Shown here: one piece after another, positions 42,732-52,965 of the stretch
How the letters are laid out: every line of letters begins with the position of its first letter
How positions within the stretch are numbered: position 1 is the stretch's first letter
From: Aminobacterium sp. MB27-C1
GTDB taxonomy: Bacteria; Synergistota; Synergistia; Synergistales; Aminobacteriaceae
Length of the DNA: 64,000 nt
Direction of reading: 5' to 3'
Assembly: GCF_030908405.1 (NCBI RefSeq)
Contig: NZ_CP133089.1
Location: 1,426,001 to 1,490,000, forward strand
Translations under genes and position numbers: made by a program
Notes under the pieces: generated by a model
The model's database searches: none
Seen by the model: the letters and a program-made list of their open reading frames with translations, nothing else
What the model was told of the DNA's origin: nothing

Positions 42732-43202
42732 TTACCAACGATAGTGAGCAAAGGCACGGTTAGCTTCTGCCATCTTATGAGTGTCTTCTCTTTTTTTAAT
42801 AGAACTGCCTTCACCTTTATAGGCATCCATAAGTTCTCTAGCAAGACGCTCTGCTATCGGCATCCCTTTTTTCGATCTGGCAAATGAAACGATCCATCTA
42901 ATAGCCAGAACTTCAGCGCGTTCTGCAGGAACCTCTACTGGCACCTGGTATGTAGCACCACCAACACGGCGAGGACGAACCTCAACTAGTGGTTTTACAT
43001 TGTCCATGGCCTTCTGGAACACTTCATAGGGCTCTGCATTCAGACGCTCCCCAGCAATATCAAGAGCACCATAAAAGGCTTTTTCAGCAACACTTCGCTT
43101 TCCGCCTTTCATGAGACTACTAATAAACTTTGATACCGCAACGCTTCCAAAACGACTGTCAGATAAACTCTGACGCTTTTTAACATGCCCCTTTCGCGGC
43201 AT
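42732..43202 (-). CDS. rpsG: 30S ribosomal protein S7
   Basis: Initiates head assembly and binds the 3' domain of 16S rRNA. MPRKGHVKKRQSL, ALDIAGERLNAEPYEVFQKAMDNVKPLVEVRPRRVGGATYQVPVEV (read in parts) and HKMAEANRAFAHYRW are diagnostic. Length is 156 aa, normal. Confidence 0.98.
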   Translation of the reverse strand: MPRKGHVKKRQSLSDSRFGSVAVSKFISSLMKGGKRSVAEKAFYGALDIAGERLNAEPYEVFQKAMDNVKPLVEVRPRRVGGATYQVPVEVPAERAEVLAIRWIVSFARSKKGMPIAERLARELMDAYKGEGSSIKKREDTHKMAEANRAFAHYRW

Positions 43203-43231
43203 GGTGACAATCCCTCCTCACGTACTACTTC

Positions 43232-43603
43232 CTACTTGGGCTTTCTTGCTCCGTACTTAGAACGCCCTCTTTTTCGATTTTCAACGCCACCGCAGTCGAG
43301 GGTTCCTCGTATGATGTGATAACGCACACCAGGCAAGTCCTTTACTCGACCTCCGCGAACAAGGACTACGGAGTGTTCCTGAAGGTTATGCCCGATTCCA
43401 GGGATATATGATGTAACCTCTATCCCGTTGGTAAGACGAACACGAGCAACCTTCCTCAAAGCTGAGTTCGGCTTCTTAGGCGTAACAGTATATACGCGGG
43501 TGCAAACTCCACGTCGCGCTGGATTCCCCTGCAATGCCGGAGAGTCACTATTCTGTCTTTTATCTTTACGCCCTTGACGAACAAGCTGATTTATTGTTGG
43601 CAC
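43232..43603 (-). CDS. rpsL: 30S ribosomal protein S12
   Basis: Decoding-centre protein. [15 protein letters not shown] starts it; [17 protein letters not shown] and [14 protein letters not shown] keep the wild-type lysines that are altered in streptomycin-resistant mutants. The frame opens 13 codons earlier at an ATG, but GGAGG 7 bases before this GTG and the universal MPTINQL beginning make GTG the likely start (123 aa). Confidence 0.98.
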
Positions 43604-43631
43604 GAAACTCCCTCCTTCCAGATTTTTATTT

Positions 43632-43904
43632 TCAACCGACACCCTTATCTTCAGAAAGAATGTTGGTAATTCCGGCTACTGATGCACTTCTGCTTATAGC
43701 ACAGGCGCGTCCCAATTTTACTTTATCGTCTGCCCACTCTACCGATACTCCCTGTTTCTCTGCCTCTAGTAAAATATCTTTTACTCTTTCTACATCGGCA
43801 TCACGAGCAATAAAAAGTTTTTTTAGACGTTTGGAATGAAGTGTTCGACGAACCTCTCTCTCTCCTACAACCCGTAAATGAGTAGCTAACTCGTTTAAAG
43901 GCAT
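43632..43904 (-). CDS. L7Ae/L30e-family RNA-binding protein heading the str operon
   Basis: A 90-aa protein of the L7Ae/L30e/S12e family, similar to B. subtilis YbxF/RplGB, which bind kink-turn [40 protein letters not shown] and SASVAGI match the fold. The frame extends 24 codons upstream across the promoter, so the ATG giving [10 protein letters not shown] after TGGAGGGTTTATT is taken. In Firmicutes the homologue sits between rpoC and rpsL, as here. It may be an accessory ribosomal protein or RNA regulator. Confidence 0.9.
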
Positions 43905-43936
43905 AATAAACCCTCCAGTGCAGAAAGCACCAAGGA

Positions 43937-43966
43937 ATAATAACAAAGAGCCCCGACTTATGTCAA
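43937..43966 (-). promoter_or_regulatory. Sigma-70-type promoter of the str/S10/spc super-operon
   Basis: The minus strand reads TTGACA, 18 bases, TATTAT: perfect -35 and 5 of 6 at the -10. Transcription would start about 25 bases before the L7Ae-like gene. The -35 lies between the arms of the hairpin that ends rpoC. Confidence 0.82.
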
Positions 43967-43989
43967 GAACGAACATTGCAGGGCTCTTT
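43945..43989 (-). terminator. Hairpin after rpoC, interwoven with the next promoter
   Basis: AAAGAGCCC and GGGCTCTTT form a 9-bp stem; inside it ATGT/ACAT can extend the structure, and the 3' side runs into GTTATTATT. It begins about 55 bases after the rpoC stop. The long loop makes it a weaker terminator than the others here. Confidence 0.6.
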
Positions 43990-44045: not shown

Positions 44046-47000
44046 TTATTCATCTATATTAGATGTTTTTTCTGATGAAACTGAAGATTTATCTATTTTA
44101 TCACTTCGATCTGCGGGAACGACATCTACATCTTTAAACCATTCAACTCCAGTCCCTGCAGGAATTAAATGTCCAATGATGACATTTTCCTTCAATCCCT
44201 GCAGCGGATCTATGTCTCCCTTTACAGCAGCTCCTGCCAAAACCTGAGCTGTCTGCTGGAAGGAAGCGGCGCTCAAGAAACTATCGGTGGCTAAAGCAGC
44301 CTTGGTAATTCCATGAACGAACGGTTTGCATTTCGGTCCTTCTCTCAGTTTGCGCACGAAAGTGACATTCCATATGAGCTGTTTTTCATCTGAGCGAGCC
44401 GAAATTGGTCGAACAACAAATTCTTCCGCATTGGATCTCATAAGAAGATCAATCATAGCACGGTTAATCTCTTGTCCGCTATCTACCAATTTTTCTCCCT
44501 TTTTATCAAAAACAGGCTCTAAAATCACTTTTCCATACGCCAGATCATTTAACAGCTCAAGTAAAACTTTATCCCTCGTTAGGATCTCACCTTCAAGATC
44601 TACTGCTGCAATTTCAGCATCGACGAGACCACGTATAATTCGAGCATCAACCATTTGAGACACATCAGTCAAAGCATTGCCTTCTCCGTCTATGGCCTGA
44701 GTCAAAGGACGTCCCCAAATTTTATTCATGAGACGTTCTTGCAATGCATCAAGTACTGAAATACGTTCAACAGAGTGCCATAATTTCAGAGATTCGATAT
44801 CGTGTTCAAGACATACTTTGGCAGCTTCCTGCGTAAAGATACGGTCTCCTTCAGCCATAACGTCACCGCCAACACAAATATCTTCTGCTAAATAGGCACT
44901 ATCGACAAGCTTCTCTATGGCCTCACTGTCTCGAACACAGATTGAGACGGGGTCCCCAGCTGTAATAATCCCCAAATGTCCAGGACTTAAAATCGTTCCA
45001 GCTACGATCTCTTTGCCATCCTGAGATTCGAAAGGTTCTATAAGTTCAAGTCCTTCCATTCTTTTTCTAAAAGCGGCTTCCCCTATAACAAGGATGAGAT
45101 CTTTTCCTTTATCGCCCTCTAAAACAATCTGGGAGATGAGATAACCCGGTCGAAGAAGGGTACGGATAGCATCTTCTGTAAGTGGCTTGTTTTGATATTG
45201 AAGAATCGCATCATTCAAACGATTTGCCACTATATTTTTAACTATACGCCCTGAGAAAATACGTGTAGCCTCCATAATATTTTTCTCGTTTTCTTTCTGG
45301 ATGGCTTCATTCTCATTTTCTATTTCATCTGTCCAGACTAAATCACCTGCGACAAAGGATGTATCCCCTTCTTCAACAACTCTAATACGGTTAACTGGTG
45401 CAACCTTCCGAAGTATAACTTCGATGTGCTTGTTGTTTATAGAAACACCCTGAGAACGGTAAACACCCTGTATTTCGTCAACAAGACTGCGCTGAACCTC
45501 TTCTATACCTTCCACTTCAAGAAGTTGTTGAGGATCAACATTCCCTTCGGTAAGACGATCGCTCTTTCCAACTGTCTGACCTTCTTCTACAAGCAAATGC
45601 TGAGATGAAGGGATACTGTATGTAACCTTCTCTTCCTTGCCTGTTTCATCTGAAGTAATAATAACTTTTCTTTTGCCTTCCATCTCACGTATTTCTTGCA
45701 CCCGGCCATCAATTCCGGCAAGGTAAGAAACTTTTTTAGGACGACGGACTTCGAAAAGCTGCTCTATTCGAGGAAGACCCTGAGTAATGTCTTCACCCGT
45801 CATACGAACGCCTCCTGTGTGGAAGGTCCGCATTGTAAGCTGTGTTCCCGGTTCGCCTATGGACTGGGCTGCAACTACTCCAACCGATTCTCCAATGGCA
45901 ACTTCTTTTCGCGTAGCAAGGTCCATACCATAACATTTCTGGCACACACCCTGTTTGAGGGTACACGTCAATGGACTCCGTACCCAAATAGAGGAGAAAC
46001 CAAGTTTATCTATAGTCTCTGCTAGTTTAGGTGTTATAAGCTCTCCAGCCTCGACTACAATTTCCCCCGTTTCAGGATGGTAGAGATCATAAAGTGATGT
46101 TCTGCCTGCGATACGTTCAGCAAGAGAGATCATAACCTTACCGTCTTGAAGCATAGGCCTGATTTCTACACCCTTATTTGTGCCACAATCATGGTGCGTA
46201 ACAATGATATCTTGAGCAACATCTACAAGACGACGAGTTAAATAACCAGACTTAGCAGTACGAAGGGCAGTATCGGCCAAACCTTTTCGCGCTCCGTGGG
46301 TAGAAATGAAGTATTCCAACATATTCATTCCCTCACGGAAGTTTGCAGTAATAGGATAGTCGATAATTCGTCCTGACGGGTCAGACATCAAGCCTCGAAT
46401 ACCTGCCATCTGTCCCATCTGACTCTTACTTCCTCGCGCACCGGAATCAACCATCATGCGAATCGGATTTTCATGGGCCATATGGTCAAGAATATTATCG
46501 GAAATTCTACGTGACGCATCAGACCACAGTATTTCCTTTCGGTAAAGGTACTCCTCCTGCGTCAATATGCCCATTTCGAATTCTGACTTTAATTCGTCAT
46601 CTTCAACAACAGTTTTTTCTGTTATTTCCTTCTTTTCAGGAGGAATGATGATAGACTGAACTCCAAAACTAATGCCGCTAACAGTAGACCAATGGTAGCC
46701 TAACGACTTTATGCCATCGAGCATCCCTACAATTTCACTTCGAGTAATGACATCATATGCATCATCGATCAGCTTACCTATAGCCTTCTTGCCAAGCTGT
46801 TTATTAATAAAACGCAACTTCTCAGGAAGAATACTATTGAAAAGAACCCGCCCTGGAGAAGTTTCAAACCAATGTTCGTCATCGTTGTCGATATTCCACT
46901 CCATCTGTTTCTTCAAACGAATGCGAGCATTTAAATGAACCACCTTATGGTTCAAAGCAATGAGTACATCTTCAATATCTGAGAAATACGCGCCTTCACC

Positions 47001-49058
47001 TTTTAATCCGTCGCGTAAATCAGTCAGGTAATAAATACCAAGAATAATGTCCTGTGTCGGAGTTACTATAGGTCTGCCACTAGCAGGTGAAAGCAAGTTA
47101 TTGGCAGATAACATAAGAAGTCGTGCTTCTGCCTGCGCTTCAAGAGAAAGAGGCACGTGAACAGCCATCTGGTCTCCATCGAAGTCTGCGTTGAAAGCCG
47201 TACAAACTAATGGGTGCAAACGTATTGCCTTTCCTTCCATCAAGACTGGCTCAAAAGCCTGGATGCCCAATCTATGGAGTGTCGGAGCTCGATTCAACAA
47301 TACAGGGTGATCTTTAATAATATCTTCAAGAATCCCCCAAATCTCCTCTCGACCTCGTTCAATAAGACGTTTTGCACTCTTAACATTAGGTGCCAATCCA
47401 CGCTCAACAAGCTGTCGTATTACGAAAGGCTTGAAAAGCTCAAGAGCCATCTGCTTTGGCAATCCACACTGATATATCTTCAGTTGAGGACCAATAACAA
47501 TAACGGATCGCCCTGAATAGTCGACACGTTTACCCAACAAGTTTTGACGGAAACGACCTTTTTTACCTCTTAACAAGTCTGTCAAACTTTTCAATGGACG
47601 ATTTCCAGCTCCTAAAACAGCTTTCCCCATGCGACCATTGTCAATGAGAGCATCGACTGACTCCTGCAACATTCTTTTCTCATTGCGAATAATAATTTCT
47701 GGAGCCCGCAACTCCTGCAACTTTCTAAGACGATTGTTTCTATTAATTACACGTCTATAAAGATCATTCAAATCAGACGTGGCGAAACGACCCCCATCAA
47801 GTTGCACCATAGGACGAAGATCTGGTGGAATAACAGGCAGAACTTCCAAAACCATGGAATCTATCTGGGACTTACTTTTTCTAAAATCTTCAGAAACCTG
47901 AAGTCTTTTAATAAGCTTTCTCTTTTTCTGCCCTGTACTCTCAGAAACATCTTCTCGTAAAGTTGCACAAAGAAGATCTAAATCAGTTTTCTGTAAAAGT
48001 GTACGAACACCCTCTGCACCTATACCAGCACTGAATTTCTTATCGTAGGCAGCACATAAGTATTCTTCCCGCTCCATAATAATATCGCAGGCGTTAAAGG
48101 GAGACGATCCCTTTTCGATAACAATATAACAAGGATCCTCTATTGTTACCGTCTCTACCTGAGCCATAAAGCGTCCAGGATATTTTTCATGGAACATTTG
48201 GAATTCCGTAGCTGAAACAACATCACCCTTTGTAAAGGGTAATTTCGCCGCCGCAGTAACTACAAAAGTTTCCTGATTATTGACAACTGCGCGTTTAACA
48301 TCAAAATTAAGTTCCAGTTTCTGCAAACGTTCAATTTCTGAAGCAGAAATAACATCTCCTGGAACAAAATCAAGATTCTCAGGGACAGATACAAATTCAA
48401 AAGCAGGCTCCACCTTGAAGAGACTATCTCCATACTCTGTCTTATATCTTGAAACCTGCTGAGCGGAAAGAACATCGCCCTCATTCACAGGAATTTCATC
48501 AACGCTGATAATGCGATATGCCTCTTCAGCCTTGATTTTAGAATCGTAGTGCGAATGAATGCGTACTTCGCTCTCTGAAATAACATCTCCCCGTCGAGCT
48601 AAATCAGGACGTCGTCCTTCCATGACGACCTTATACGCCGCTTCTCGTTTACGCGTCGGAGCAAAATAGACAACTTTTTCCAAATCCTTTGTGCTTGTAC
48701 CCAAAAGAAGGCTCAAGCGGCTCGGAATGCCTCTGAGATACCAAATATGCACAACAGGCGCAGCCAACTCGATATGGCCCATTCGCTCTCTGCGAACACG
48801 GTTATCGGTAACTTCTACACCACAACGGTCACAAATGATACCTTTAAACTTTGGACCGCTTCGCTTGTATTTGCCACAGGCACATTCATAGCTTTTTGTG
48901 GGGCCAAAGATACGCTCACAGAAAAGTCCATCTTTTTCAGGGCGAAGTGTTCTATAGTTAATAGTTTCTGGCTTTTTAACTTCACCACTGGACAATTCTC
49001 TGATCCGTTCTGGGCTGGCCAGCTTAATACGTACCCCGACTATTTCTCTTTGGCTCAT
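44046..49058 (-). CDS. rpoC: RNA polymerase beta' subunit with repeat-containing insert
   Basis: Catalytic subunit of RNA polymerase. The zinc site (Cys59, Cys61, Cys76, Cys79), the [14 protein letters not shown] region and the Mg-binding NADFDGDQ (623-629) are intact, and [15 protein letters not shown] near the middle holds the second zinc site. At 1670 aa it exceeds E. coli (1407). Residues about 155-345 are an insert between the zinc domain and the core, with degenerate repeats of GDVxSAxE at 157, 194, 234, 278 and 324, comparable in place to the non-conserved insert of Thermus and Thermotoga beta'. It starts 3 bases after rpoB; a hairpin follows. Confidence 0.99.
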
Positions 49059-49061
49059 CTA

Positions 49062-52000
49062 TTATTCAGCCCCTTCCGGGTCATCATTACTTTCCTCAAA
49101 CACATCTTCAAAAAGCATGTTTTCGGACATTACTTCTTTCTCATCAACGACAACTTCCATTTCATCGGCGATTTCTTCCTCTACTTTTTCAGATTTCTGA
49201 GGTTCTTGTGGCTTTTCTTCCTTCTCTTTTACGCCTACAGTCTCTGAAGTGGAACGACGTGCTCCATCTTCATCCTCATCATCCATAACCAATTCGCCAA
49301 TGGTTCCGTCGCTGTATTTAATTTCAACATCTAGCACTAAACCCTGTAATTCTTTAACAAGAACACGGAAGCTTTCAGGAACACCGGGCTTCGCCAAGTT
49401 TTGTCCTTTTACAATCTTCTCATATGTCTTCAGACGACCTCGTATATCGTCAGATTTAACAGTCAACATTTCCTGAAGTATGTGAGCCGCTCCATATCCT
49501 TCAAGGGCCCAAACTTCCATTTCTCCAAAACGCTGACCACCAAACTGAGCTTTACCACCCAAAGGCTGCTGAGTTATCAAACTGTAAGGACCGATCGAAC
49601 GAGCGTGGATTTTATCGTCAACAAGGTGAATGAGCTTGAGCATATACATACATCCAACTGTGACTTTCTTTTCCATACGCTCTCCTGTTCGTCCGTCATA
49701 GAGAGTAATCATACCGTCTGACGTTAAGTCAGGATATTTTTCTTTACTCAATTTATCGAGAAGATCAAAAATTTCTCCTTCTTGAGCACCTTCAAAAACT
49801 GGTGTCGCCACATGCCATCCATTGTTCATTGCCACAAATCCCATAATGGTCTCAAGAACCTGCCCCAGGTTCATACGGCTAGGAACACCCAGAGGGTTCA
49901 AAACAATGTCACAAGGAGTTCCGTCTGGCAAGTAAGGCATATCTTCTACTGGAAGAATACGAGAAACAACACCTTTGTTTCCGTGTCGACCTGCCATTTT
50001 GTCACCAACTGTTATTTTACGAAGCTGGGCAACATAAATCTTAACGACTTCATTGACACCAGGGCTCAATGCATCTGGGTTATTCTCTCGTGTCATGCGC
50101 TTTACAGCAACAATCTTTCCACGAGCACCATGCGGAACTTTAAGAGACGTATCTCTTACCTCTCTCGCTTTTTCTCCGAATATTGCTCTGAGAAGTTTTT
50201 CCTCCGGGGATTGATCAGACTCTCCCTTAGGAGTTACTTTACCAACGAGAATATCACCCGCATTAACCTCGGCTCCGACACGCACTATGCCATCTTCATC
50301 GAGATTTTTAAGCATATCTTCTCCCACATTGGGAATGTCGCGGGTTATTTCTTCTGGTCCAAGTTTGGTGTCTCGTGCCTCTATTTCATATTCTTCTATA
50401 TGTATAGATGTATAGAAATCTTCTTTAACAAGACGTTCACTAAGGAGAATGGCATCTTCGTAGTTGTATCCTTCCCAAGGAAGGAACGCAACAAGAACAT
50501 TTCTTCCCAAAGCGAGCTCTCCGTTATCAACAGATTGGCCATCTGCTATAATATCGCCTTTTTTAACCTGTTCTCCCTTCAATACTGAGGGACGTTGATG
50601 AATAATCGTTCCTTGGTTAGACCTTCGGAATTTCACCAAGGGGTATACGTGAATACCACGCTCTGACCTTACCTCTATACGATCAGCATCAACGTAAGCT
50701 ACTTCTCCATTCTCAGATGCGACAACGCAAGAACCTGAGTCTTTCGCGATTCTATGTTCAATTCCTGTTCCAACTCGCGGTGCATCTGGTTGAATAAGAG
50801 GTACAGCCTGGCGTTGCATGTTTGATCCCATAAGAGCACGGTTAGCGTCGTCGTGCTCGAGGAAAGGAATAAGAGCCGTTGAAACAGAAACAATCTGTTT
50901 AGGCGAGACGTCGAGATAATCCACCATGTCTCTAGGGATAAGTTCAATATCTCCACGATAACGCGTATGGCATTCCTCTTCCAAATAACCATCTTCATCT
51001 ATTGGAGTATTCGCTCTGGCAATATATAAATTGTCTTCTTCATCGGCTGAAAGATATTCGATTTCTTTGGCAACTTTTCCTTCTACAACTTTGCGCCGAG
51101 GAGTCATCAAGAAGCCATATTCATTGACCCTCGCATAGGTAGCCAGAGATGTAACCAAGCCAATGTTTGGTCCTTCTGGCGTCTCTATTGGGCATATTCT
51201 TCCATAGTGAGTATGATGAACGTCTCGAGCTTCAAATCCGGCTCTTTCTCTGCTCAAACCACCAGGTCCCAACGCCGAAAGACGCCTACGGTGAGTTACC
51301 TCAGCGAGAGGGTTCGTCTGATCCATAAACTGGGAAAGCTGTCCTGAACCAAAGAATTCTCGAATAGCCGCTGCAATGGGGCGAACGTTAATGAGATCTC
51401 TTGCCATTGCTGATTCCAAGTCTGGTACAGTCGTCATTCGTTCTTTAGCAATGCGTTCCATACGAAGCAAGCCTATACGGATCTGGTTTTGAAGAAGCTC
51501 TCCGACAGAACGAACTCTTCGATTTCCAAGATGGTCGATATCGTCATCTTCCGATTCAGGGTTGCGAAGCTCAATGACACCCAGAATAATGCGACGAATG
51601 TCTTCAAGAGTGAGCAACCTGTTATCTTCAGGAATAGAAAGACCTAAACGTCGATTTATTTTGTAACGTCCAACTCTGCCCAAATTATATCTTCGTGTAT
51701 CAAAGAACAGACTATACACATACTCTCTGGCATTCTCTACCCGTGCTGGTTCATTGGGGCGAAGACGACGGAACATCTCAAGTACAGCATCGTCACTGCC
51801 AACAGTATTGTCACGCTCCAAAGTTGCAGCAATAGCTGGATCTACGCTCCAGACGTGAACTTTTGTTCTTCCCTGACTCCACAATGCTTCAAGATGCTCT
51901 TTCGTCAATCTGTCATTCTTAACTACTATTTCATTGCCTTCCCCATCGACTATCGTCTCTGCAATGAGTCGACCCTTAACATCTTCTTCCGTTAAATCTA

Positions 52001-52679
52001 CCTCTATTACTGTTGCGCCAAACATTTCGAGTATCTCTTCGTTACTCGATACGCCAAAAGCTTTCAACAAAATTGTTGCTGGAAGCTTTTTCCTATTGTC
52101 TATGTTCACAGAAAGAACGTCTCCAGGACTTAAACTAAACTCCAACCACGCTCCACGATCTGGAATAATCTTCGCAGAGTAAGTCTCTTGTCCAGGAATG
52201 TCTTCTTCCTTATGAAAATAAACGCCAGCAGAACGAGCAAGCTGATTAACAACTACTCGTTCCGTTCCATTAATAATAAAGGTGCCCCTATCGGTCATAA
52301 TAGGAAAATCTCCGAGGAAAATCTCTTCTTCCTTGATCTCCTTGGTCTTCCTATTGGTAAGCCTGATAGTAGCACGTATGGGTTGAGACCATGTCAAGTC
52401 TCTCTGTCGGGCTTCTTCTTCATCTCCAGAAGGATCATCCACAAAGTAATGGACAAACTCAAGAGCAAAAGCCCCATCATAACTTTCTATAGGAAAAACT
52501 TCATGAAGAAGTTCTTCCAATCCCTGCAACTTCCTCGAATCCGCATCGCAACTCTTCTGATAAAACCAATCATAAGAATTACGCTGGATTTCTATCATGT
52601 CAGGAATCTCTACAAGATCCCTGGCACGTCCGAAAGTTAACCTCTGCCGCCTTCTGCCCACGGGAACAAACTCGGCCAT
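49062..52679 (-). CDS. rpoB: RNA polymerase beta subunit
   Basis: Core subunit of RNA polymerase, 1205 aa. The rifampicin region [28 protein letters not shown] (in parts) keeps the residues of drug-sensitive enzymes, followed by [38 protein letters not shown] (in part) and the [13 protein letters not shown] segment lie near the end. The last ~70 residues are an unusual acidic, low-complexity tail rich in Glu, Asp, Lys and Val. GGAGG lies 11 bases before the ATG. The gene is led by its own promoters after a tRNA-Leu; no rplJL is upstream. Confidence 0.99.
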
Positions 52680-52734
52680 GCGCGTTATGACCTCCCTGTA
52701 AAAGATATGGGGGAAATAATGTTGACGAAGAACA

Positions 52735-52763
52735 AAGATAACAAAAAGGGCGCGTTATGTCAA
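52735..52763 (-). promoter_or_regulatory. rpoB promoter P2, -35 inside the terminator hairpin
   Basis: The minus strand reads TTGACA, 17 bases, TATCTT. The perfect -35 lies at the loop and descending arm of the hairpin described next, and the -10 just beyond its T-run. A transcript would start about 50 bases before rpoB and avoid the terminator. Confidence 0.72.
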
Positions 52764-52779
52764 CGACACAACGCAGCCC
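52743..52779 (-). terminator. Strong intrinsic terminator between tRNA-Leu and rpoB
   Basis: On the minus strand GGGCTGCGTTGTGTC pairs with GACATAACGCGCCC (14 pairs with one bulged T and one G-U), loop GTT, then TTTTTGTT. It ends the tRNA-Leu unit. RNA begun at P1 would start almost at the foot of this stem, so it could also act as an attenuator for rpoBC. Confidence 0.85.
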
Positions 52780-52782
52780 CTT

Positions 52783-52812
52783 ATTATATCCTCTATAAGG
52801 CACATATTGCAA
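52783..52812 (-). promoter_or_regulatory. rpoB promoter P1, directly before a terminator
   Basis: The minus strand reads TTGCAA, 18 bases, TATAAT. The -10 is perfect, the -35 is 4 of 6 and the spacing slightly long. It lies 17 bases after the tRNA-Leu 3' end. Confidence 0.55.
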
Positions 52813-52829
52813 GTCTTAAACTATATATA

Positions 52830-52917
52830 TGGTGCCGAGGCGGGGACTCGAACCCCGACAGGCTAAATGCCCACTAGAACCTGAATCTAGCGCGTCTACC
52901 AATTCCGCCACCCCGGC
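52830..52917 (-). tRNA. tRNA-Leu, anticodon CAG
   Basis: An 88-base class II tRNA whose 3' CCA is encoded. The acceptor stem GCCGGGG pairs with CCTCGGC, the D-arm contains GGCGGAATTGGTAGACGC, the anticodon stem CTAGA/TCTAG closes the loop TTCAGGT, a leucine-type variable arm follows, and the T-arm has GGGGTTCGAGTCCCC. Anticodon CAG reads the CUG leucine codon. Confidence 0.98.
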
Positions 52918-52936: not shown

Positions 52937-52965
52937 ATTGTAGCAAGGGCCAGCCGCTTTGGCAA
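52937..52965 (-). promoter_or_regulatory. Promoter of tRNA-Leu
   Basis: The minus strand reads TTGCCA, 17 bases, TACAAT, about 20 bases before the mature tRNA 5' end. It falls in the short gap after the sua5-type gene. Confidence 0.7.

Follow-up and report, generated by a model that had tools for sequence, protein, structure and literature searches.

The window, the whole stretch of 64,000 nucleotides that was analysed, belongs to a genome of 2.43 Mb in one contig, and the features considered here are read from its minus strand. A tsaC-type gene is followed by the gene for tRNA-Leu(CAG), an AT-rich gap of 47 nt, a hairpin with a T-run, a short leader, and then rpoB and rpoC. The features are:

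52937–52965, minus strand: likely promoter of tRNA-Leu, TTGCCA-17-TACAAT with TG before the second box (consensus scan)
52830–52917, minus strand: tRNA-Leu(CAG), CCA encoded (ARAGORN; Rfam RF00005)
52783–52812, minus strand: P1, candidate lineage-specific accessory promoter, TTGCAA at 52812–52807, 18-bp spacer, TATAAT at 52788–52783 (consensus scan)
52745–52782, minus strand: putative terminator hairpin of 17 pairs with one bulge (RNAfold; covariation in relatives)
52758–52763, minus strand: P2 −35 box TTGACA
52743–52747, minus strand: T-run TTTTT of the putative terminator, within the P2 spacer (sequence; logo of relatives)
52735–52743, minus strand: P2 extended −10 element, TG at 52743–52742 and TATCTT at 52740–52735
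52726, minus strand: predicted P2 start at the ninth base past the −10 box, a G preceded by a pyrimidine (from conservation)
52680–52726, minus strand: rpoB leader of 47 nt with Shine-Dalgarno sequence GGGAGG at 52696–52691; similar sequence in most of the relatives' loci examined
49062–52679, minus strand: rpoB (TIGR02013)
44046–49058, minus strand: rpoC (TIGR02386)

The rpoC product is long (1670 aa), and downstream of rpoBC lie L7Ae-like, rpsL and rpsG genes (42732–43976 region), not rplL, which is found at position 1,893,685 of the same genome, about 415 kb from rpoB (near 1,478,000). The gene upstream of rpoBC is that for tRNA-Leu(CAG), and the sequence predicts that its transcript would end at the hairpin.

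RpoB matches among named genomes, which include Acetomicrobium hydrogeniformans and further Synergistales, place the window in the phylum Synergistota. For comparison, RpoB was matched in 170 of 185 genomes of the phylum, and 142 loci were fetched (57 first, then 80, then 5), leaving 28 unfetched. One locus with only 56 nt upstream (G177) was dropped, so that 141 were classified, 136 of them from the order of the window, Synergistales; the thresholds were fixed after the first 57 loci had been inspected. A scan of named genomes contributed four Synergistota loci (L061–L064), all from MAGs, and the remaining 32, from other groups, were unused. Family and genus labels (f1–f12, g1 and so on) are anonymous working labels of this genome set.

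The hairpin (52782–52745) folds at −24.4 kcal/mol with a z-score of −6.46 in RNAfold, and none of 200 shuffled sequences folds as well. It has both hallmarks of an intrinsic terminator, a stable stem containing G+C and a T-run directly after it. A 14-pair hairpin followed by TTTTT had been proposed here in the preliminary description; both are present on the minus strand, but the stem has 17 pairs and one bulged base. Between genera the arms vary yet still pair. In 20 hairpins picked by hand for gap-free alignment and good pairing, 12 of 16 pairs are altered on both sides (71 cells against 21.5 in shuffled arms), the covariation score is 0.724 against a maximum of 0.201 when slid, and 96.3% of cells pair against 75.6% in shuffled arms; eight picked hairpins with a 3-nt loop give 93.8% against 88.7% shuffled, with 5 of 16 pairs altered on both sides. 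Because both sets were selected with an eye to gap-free alignment and good pairing, they are biased towards the structure. All 36 distinct arms with a 4-nt loop from outside family f4 were also compared, drawn from 91 hairpins at a slightly different cut-off that admits G148 and leaves out G118, and here pairs 4–10 and 12 exceed 500 of 500 shuffles. In the innermost pairs, the bases on the 3′ side belong to the −35 box and do not vary, and their 5′ partners are variable and occasionally mismatched; this fixedness is partly built in, because a hairpin was counted only with TTGAC inside. The T-run is weak in two genomes (G035 and G044), and across 54 genera the four spacer columns preceding the G of TG each have a T in 47–51 of them (logo). 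We infer from the fold, its covariation and the T-run that the hairpin probably terminates transcription in vivo.

Extended −10 promoters of the sigma-70 type follow the pattern TTGACA-17-TGnTATnnT, and transcription usually starts at the seventh base after the −10 box. P2, read as TTGACA-17-TATCTT with a TG preceding the −10 box, has the −35 sequence, the spacing of about 17 bp and the TGn of this class, and differs from it in carrying the T-run of a terminator in its spacer. The position of its TTGACA within the hairpin, as had been proposed, is confirmed, its TT belonging to the loop and its GACA to the 3′ arm. Upstream of rpoB, the promoter-like match with the highest score begins with TTGAC in 129 of the 136 loci of the order; of the five loci outside the order, the four of f11 lack TTGAC and the one of f12 has TTGACA and no hairpin. 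An alignment of one genome per genus, numbered from 0 at the start of the −10 box and covering 54 of the 57 genera of the order, has G at +14 and a pyrimidine at +13 in every one of the 54. This invariant YG at a fixed distance supports a predicted transcription start at 52726, which lies beyond the seventh base usual for extended −10 promoters, and P2 is probably the main promoter of rpoBC. With its long discriminator and G start, P2 may be reminiscent of the growth-regulated rRNA promoters.

Two possible pairings in the leader may be recorded here. A C-run (52713–52709, minus strand), which recurs in many relatives, could pair with GGGAGG at 52696–52691. In the 3′ arm of the hairpin, the 10-mer CATAACGCGC (52759–52750) has a second copy at 52689–52680, just before the rpoB start codon, so that the ribosome site could serve as an alternative partner of the 5′ arm in RNA that reads through. 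The repeat is likewise found in G001, and partially in G002.

The −35 box lies within a strong hairpin in 91 of the 136 loci of the order, in nine of its ten families (f1 35/45, f2 2/2, f3 6/12, f4 24/47, f5 4/4, f6 4/4, f7 5/5, f8 2/2, f9 0/6 and f10 9/9). Such loci are called fused here, which by definition requires TTGAC; G148 and G015 were excluded from the count by name, and both are below the thresholds regardless. Fusion goes with the presence of tRNA-Leu within 320 nt, since 74 loci have both, 12 the tRNA only, 17 the fusion only and 33 neither. The fused fraction is thus 74 of 86 with the tRNA against 17 of 50 without it (Fisher p 8.7e-10, kinship ignored), and when each genus is represented by its majority state the four classes number 30, 3, 12 and 12, with 30 of 33 against 12 of 24 fused (p 8e-4); the genomes are related and not independent samples, so these p values are too small. 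Two details of scoring bear on individual loci: G087, with its tRNA at −323, counts as lacking the tRNA and as unfused, the fused hairpin after its tRNA exceeding the scan range, and in G023, G146 and G182, with 210–236 nt available upstream, a slightly more distant tRNA could escape detection.

The hairpin and the promoter also occur apart. In genera g22 and g36, the tRNA and a terminator of 16 pairs are retained in all six genomes without TTGAC, and P2 is present without the hairpin in 32 of the 50 genomes having no tRNA-Leu nearby (for example g44–g48). In all six genomes of f9 the tRNA and P2 are kept, and no convincing terminator is found between them. A tRNA-Leu gene was sought elsewhere in seven genomes, with an identifiable CAG copy in four; in two of these genomes (G139 and G005) the relocated tRNA-Leu(CAG) is followed, as judged by eye, by a hairpin and T-run without TTGACA, and in the other two (G029 and G157) no obvious terminator occurs within 90 nt after it. 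The 17 fused loci with no tRNA-Leu inside the 320-nt limit include 11 with a strong P1, as well as G099, which carries a tRNA-Arg, and G182, which meets a contig edge. The remaining four (G005, G027, G029 and G168), with neither tRNA-Leu nearby nor a strong P1, have same-strand open stretches upstream, as do several unfused genomes, and G027 has a tRNA-Leu at −954. In the four f11 loci outside the order (L182–L185), rpoB follows a tRNA-Arg(CCG) situated about 200 nt upstream, without a fused element. This distribution is most simply explained by assigning the hairpin to the tRNA and the promoter to rpoB. The suggestion of a tRNA terminator reused as a promoter, one of two offered in the preliminary description, is accordingly well supported, the hairpin tracking the tRNA, P2 tracking rpoB, and the two being separable in relatives.

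Based on these comparisons, positions 52735–52782 very probably constitute a dual-use element, in which the terminator of tRNA-Leu(CAG) and the core promoter of rpoBC share about 50 bases. The reading is carried by what comparison of the sequences gives directly, namely the hairpin, its covariation, the conservation of P2 and the separate occurrence of both parts. As RNA, the minus strand of the element would form an intrinsic terminator for the tRNA-Leu(CAG) transcript; in the DNA duplex, its 3′ half would act as the P2 core promoter of rpoBC, with the −35 box formed by loop and 3′ arm, the T-run placed in the spacer, and the extended −10 element following directly. RNA polymerase would thus meet the stop of the upstream gene and the start of rpoBC at one place. 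Transcripts from P2 are predicted to begin downstream, at 52726, and would therefore never include the hairpin. Such an arrangement would bar read-through from the tRNA gene into rpoBC without extra spacer DNA, an insulating role that we infer from the layout. P1, where it exists, would be a secondary, lineage-specific promoter with RNA that mostly ends at the same hairpin.

An alternative, proposed in the preliminary description as an attenuator with a bypass, gives P1 a larger part: P1 would be a real promoter in the genus, its RNA would mostly stop after about 35–45 nt with conditional read-through, and P2 would provide a constant supply, the same terminator also ending the tRNA, as at ampC/frd. 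We regard this as unlikely, with evidence that points in both directions. P1 (TTGCAA or TTGCAT, 18, TATAAT) occupies an identical place with identical spacing in three of three species of the window's genus, which speaks for it, but it is weak when taken alone, with p values of 0.037, 0.016 and 0.108 in the three species against same-gap shuffles. Its predicted start is at the hairpin foot or a few bases inside, and the 35-nt version of the hairpin folds at −14.2 kcal/mol. RNA this short could be terminated, since PMC6978380 describes a template for in vitro termination in which a transcription unit of 38 bp ends at a phage terminator. Against a general role, most genomes with tRNA-Leu and the fused hairpin gave no promoter-like match between the two in a promoter scan, in many cases because fewer than 45 nt separate them; the scan also misses the P1 of the window's own genus, because the fold includes the P1 −10 box, and this genus was treated apart.

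Further support for this alternative comes from 13 genomes of f4, in which a strong P1 (TTGACA, 16–18, nATAAT) lies 30–56 nt upstream of the same hairpin. Eleven of the 13 are without tRNA-Leu nearby, and such a promoter is missing from all unfused genomes; among the 50 genomes without tRNA-Leu within 320 nt, 11 have both a strong P1 and the fusion, none P1 only, 6 the fusion only and 33 neither (p 3e-7). A promoter firing into this terminator has thus recurred, and an attenuator in those lineages is possible. Weighing against it, the predicted f4 P1 leaders (68–92 nt) are without conserved structure, no 5′ part folding better than shuffles at p below 0.08 in the 13 genomes, and in a search of Rfam with the leader and 12 f4 loci only tRNA scored above the gathering threshold, with no known leader. 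A conserved small RNA made from the f4 P1 is unsupported for the same lack of 5′ structure beyond shuffles, and three Rfam hits to the Enterococcus sRNA EF3314_EF3315 are at chance level (E 0.74). In addition, an unsystematic look noticed no antiterminator able to rival the hairpin of −24 kcal/mol. All three species of the genus share the sequence CCTTATA in the P1 spacer (52800–52779 region, minus strand), of which CCTTAT could pair with the ATAAGG at the foot of the hairpin; as an antiterminator this pairing was judged by eye to be too weak. An attenuator with bypass is consequently not the general design, P1 being absent from the scan of most fused genomes, and is possible in the window's own genus and in the 13 genomes of f4. 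Since P1 is conserved in the genus and a strong P1 exists in f4, accessory transcription from P1, ending mostly at the hairpin, is possible.

The two functions could also be coupled, which we consider quite improbable. Polymerase that ends the tRNA-Leu (or P1) transcript would stay on the DNA and restart at P2, which it already covers. In the fuller version, a long shot to a similar degree, polymerase released at the terminator restarts at P2, or blocks P2 while paused, the output of tRNA-Leu or P1 would set the supply of polymerase, and in f4 the strong P1 would have replaced the departed tRNA as the feeder. The predicted release site does fall on P2, and the fusion extends to nine of ten families; in vitro, according to PMC6978380 and PMC11347151, polymerase mostly remains on the DNA after intrinsic termination and can restart nearby. 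However, P2 is mostly kept without the hairpin where tRNA-Leu is not nearby, so P2 is independent of the hairpin. PMC11347151 describes facilitated reinitiation as not yet demonstrated in vivo, and PMC6978322 gives restart as usually in the reverse direction, with antisense restarts reported in live cells.

The dyad might, instead of ending transcripts, be a DNA operator or a cruciform at P2. A long inverted repeat does extend across the −35 box, and the f4 element is nearly identical in many genera, beyond what pairing needs, but the arms change with compensation between genera and a T-run follows the stem; moreover, a hairpin still follows the tRNA in genomes without the −35 box, and most genomes without the tRNA have no hairpin, which makes this reading very improbable. 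The near-identical f4 element comprises 46 bases (AACAGGCGA..CTGTCTATTGACAG.TGTCGCTTTTTTG.TATAAT; for example in loci L125–L129, L134–L137, L148, L150 and L156–L158). In some of these loci its 5′ arm contains an ACAGG/CCTGT dyad, possibly a protein site. A CodY site at P1 was considered as well; CodY motifs of Synergistetes are published in PMC9318921.

Elements of this kind are rare in the genome. Among 178 terminator-like hairpins in 464 kb (the 64-kb window and 20 sampled stretches), three have a promoter-like match with its −35 box embedded, of which P2 agrees with 10 of 12 consensus bases and has the TG, against 9 of 12 and no TG for the other two. The pattern TTGACN15TGNTATNNT occurs five times in the 2.43-Mb genome, and P2 is the only occurrence with five T directly before the G of TG. 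In the phylum, TTGACN12TTTTGYTATNNT is found in 71 of 185 genomes and the pattern read backwards in 3 of 185. A chance overlap of a terminator with promoter-like letters can practically be dismissed: promoter-like matches are common (11 found against 5.2 expected in 3 kb), but this one is conserved across the order and is the single case of such quality in 464 kb.

The dual-use element concerns an essential output, the synthesis of RNA polymerase, since, across an order, the rpoBC promoter and the terminator of a tRNA gene next to it appear to have bases in common. Should the coupling considered above be true, a leucine tRNA gene (or P1) would, through its output, set the supply of RNA polymerase. 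In the titles and abstract openings of the open-licence literature searched, no published rpoB terminator–promoter fusion in Synergistota was found, an absence that is unproven; the parts of PMC13236596, PMC11796351 and PMC3890552 consulted contain no closer system.

Overlap between a terminator and a promoter is as such already known. At the E. coli frd terminator and ampC attenuator (Grundstrom and Jaurin 1982, as cited in PMC11838884), one hairpin ends the upstream operon at the start of the next gene, as would be the case here, and the promoter is upstream of the terminator, like P1. Unlike the transcripts from the ampC promoter, which cross the terminator, those from P2, with its −35 box inside the hairpin, would escape it. 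The E. coli rplL-rpoB attenuator (PMC4670729) is likewise a terminating element just upstream of rpoBC that separates it from upstream transcription. In E. coli, rpoBC is read from an operon with rplKAJL, whereas here the upstream gene is a tRNA gene; the E. coli type of attenuator is no match, because rplL lies some 415 kb from rpoB and the two are not placed for cotranscription. In the recycling between termination and reinitiation described in PMC6978380 and PMC11347151, terminator and next promoter are close, and here the distance is about zero. That process was demonstrated with single molecules in vitro, whereas the element described here is predicted from sequence comparison. As a conserved natural pairing of terminator and promoter, with halves that separate in relatives, it offers a ready test system, and a natural case in which to ask whether transcription that ends at one gene can feed initiation at the following one.
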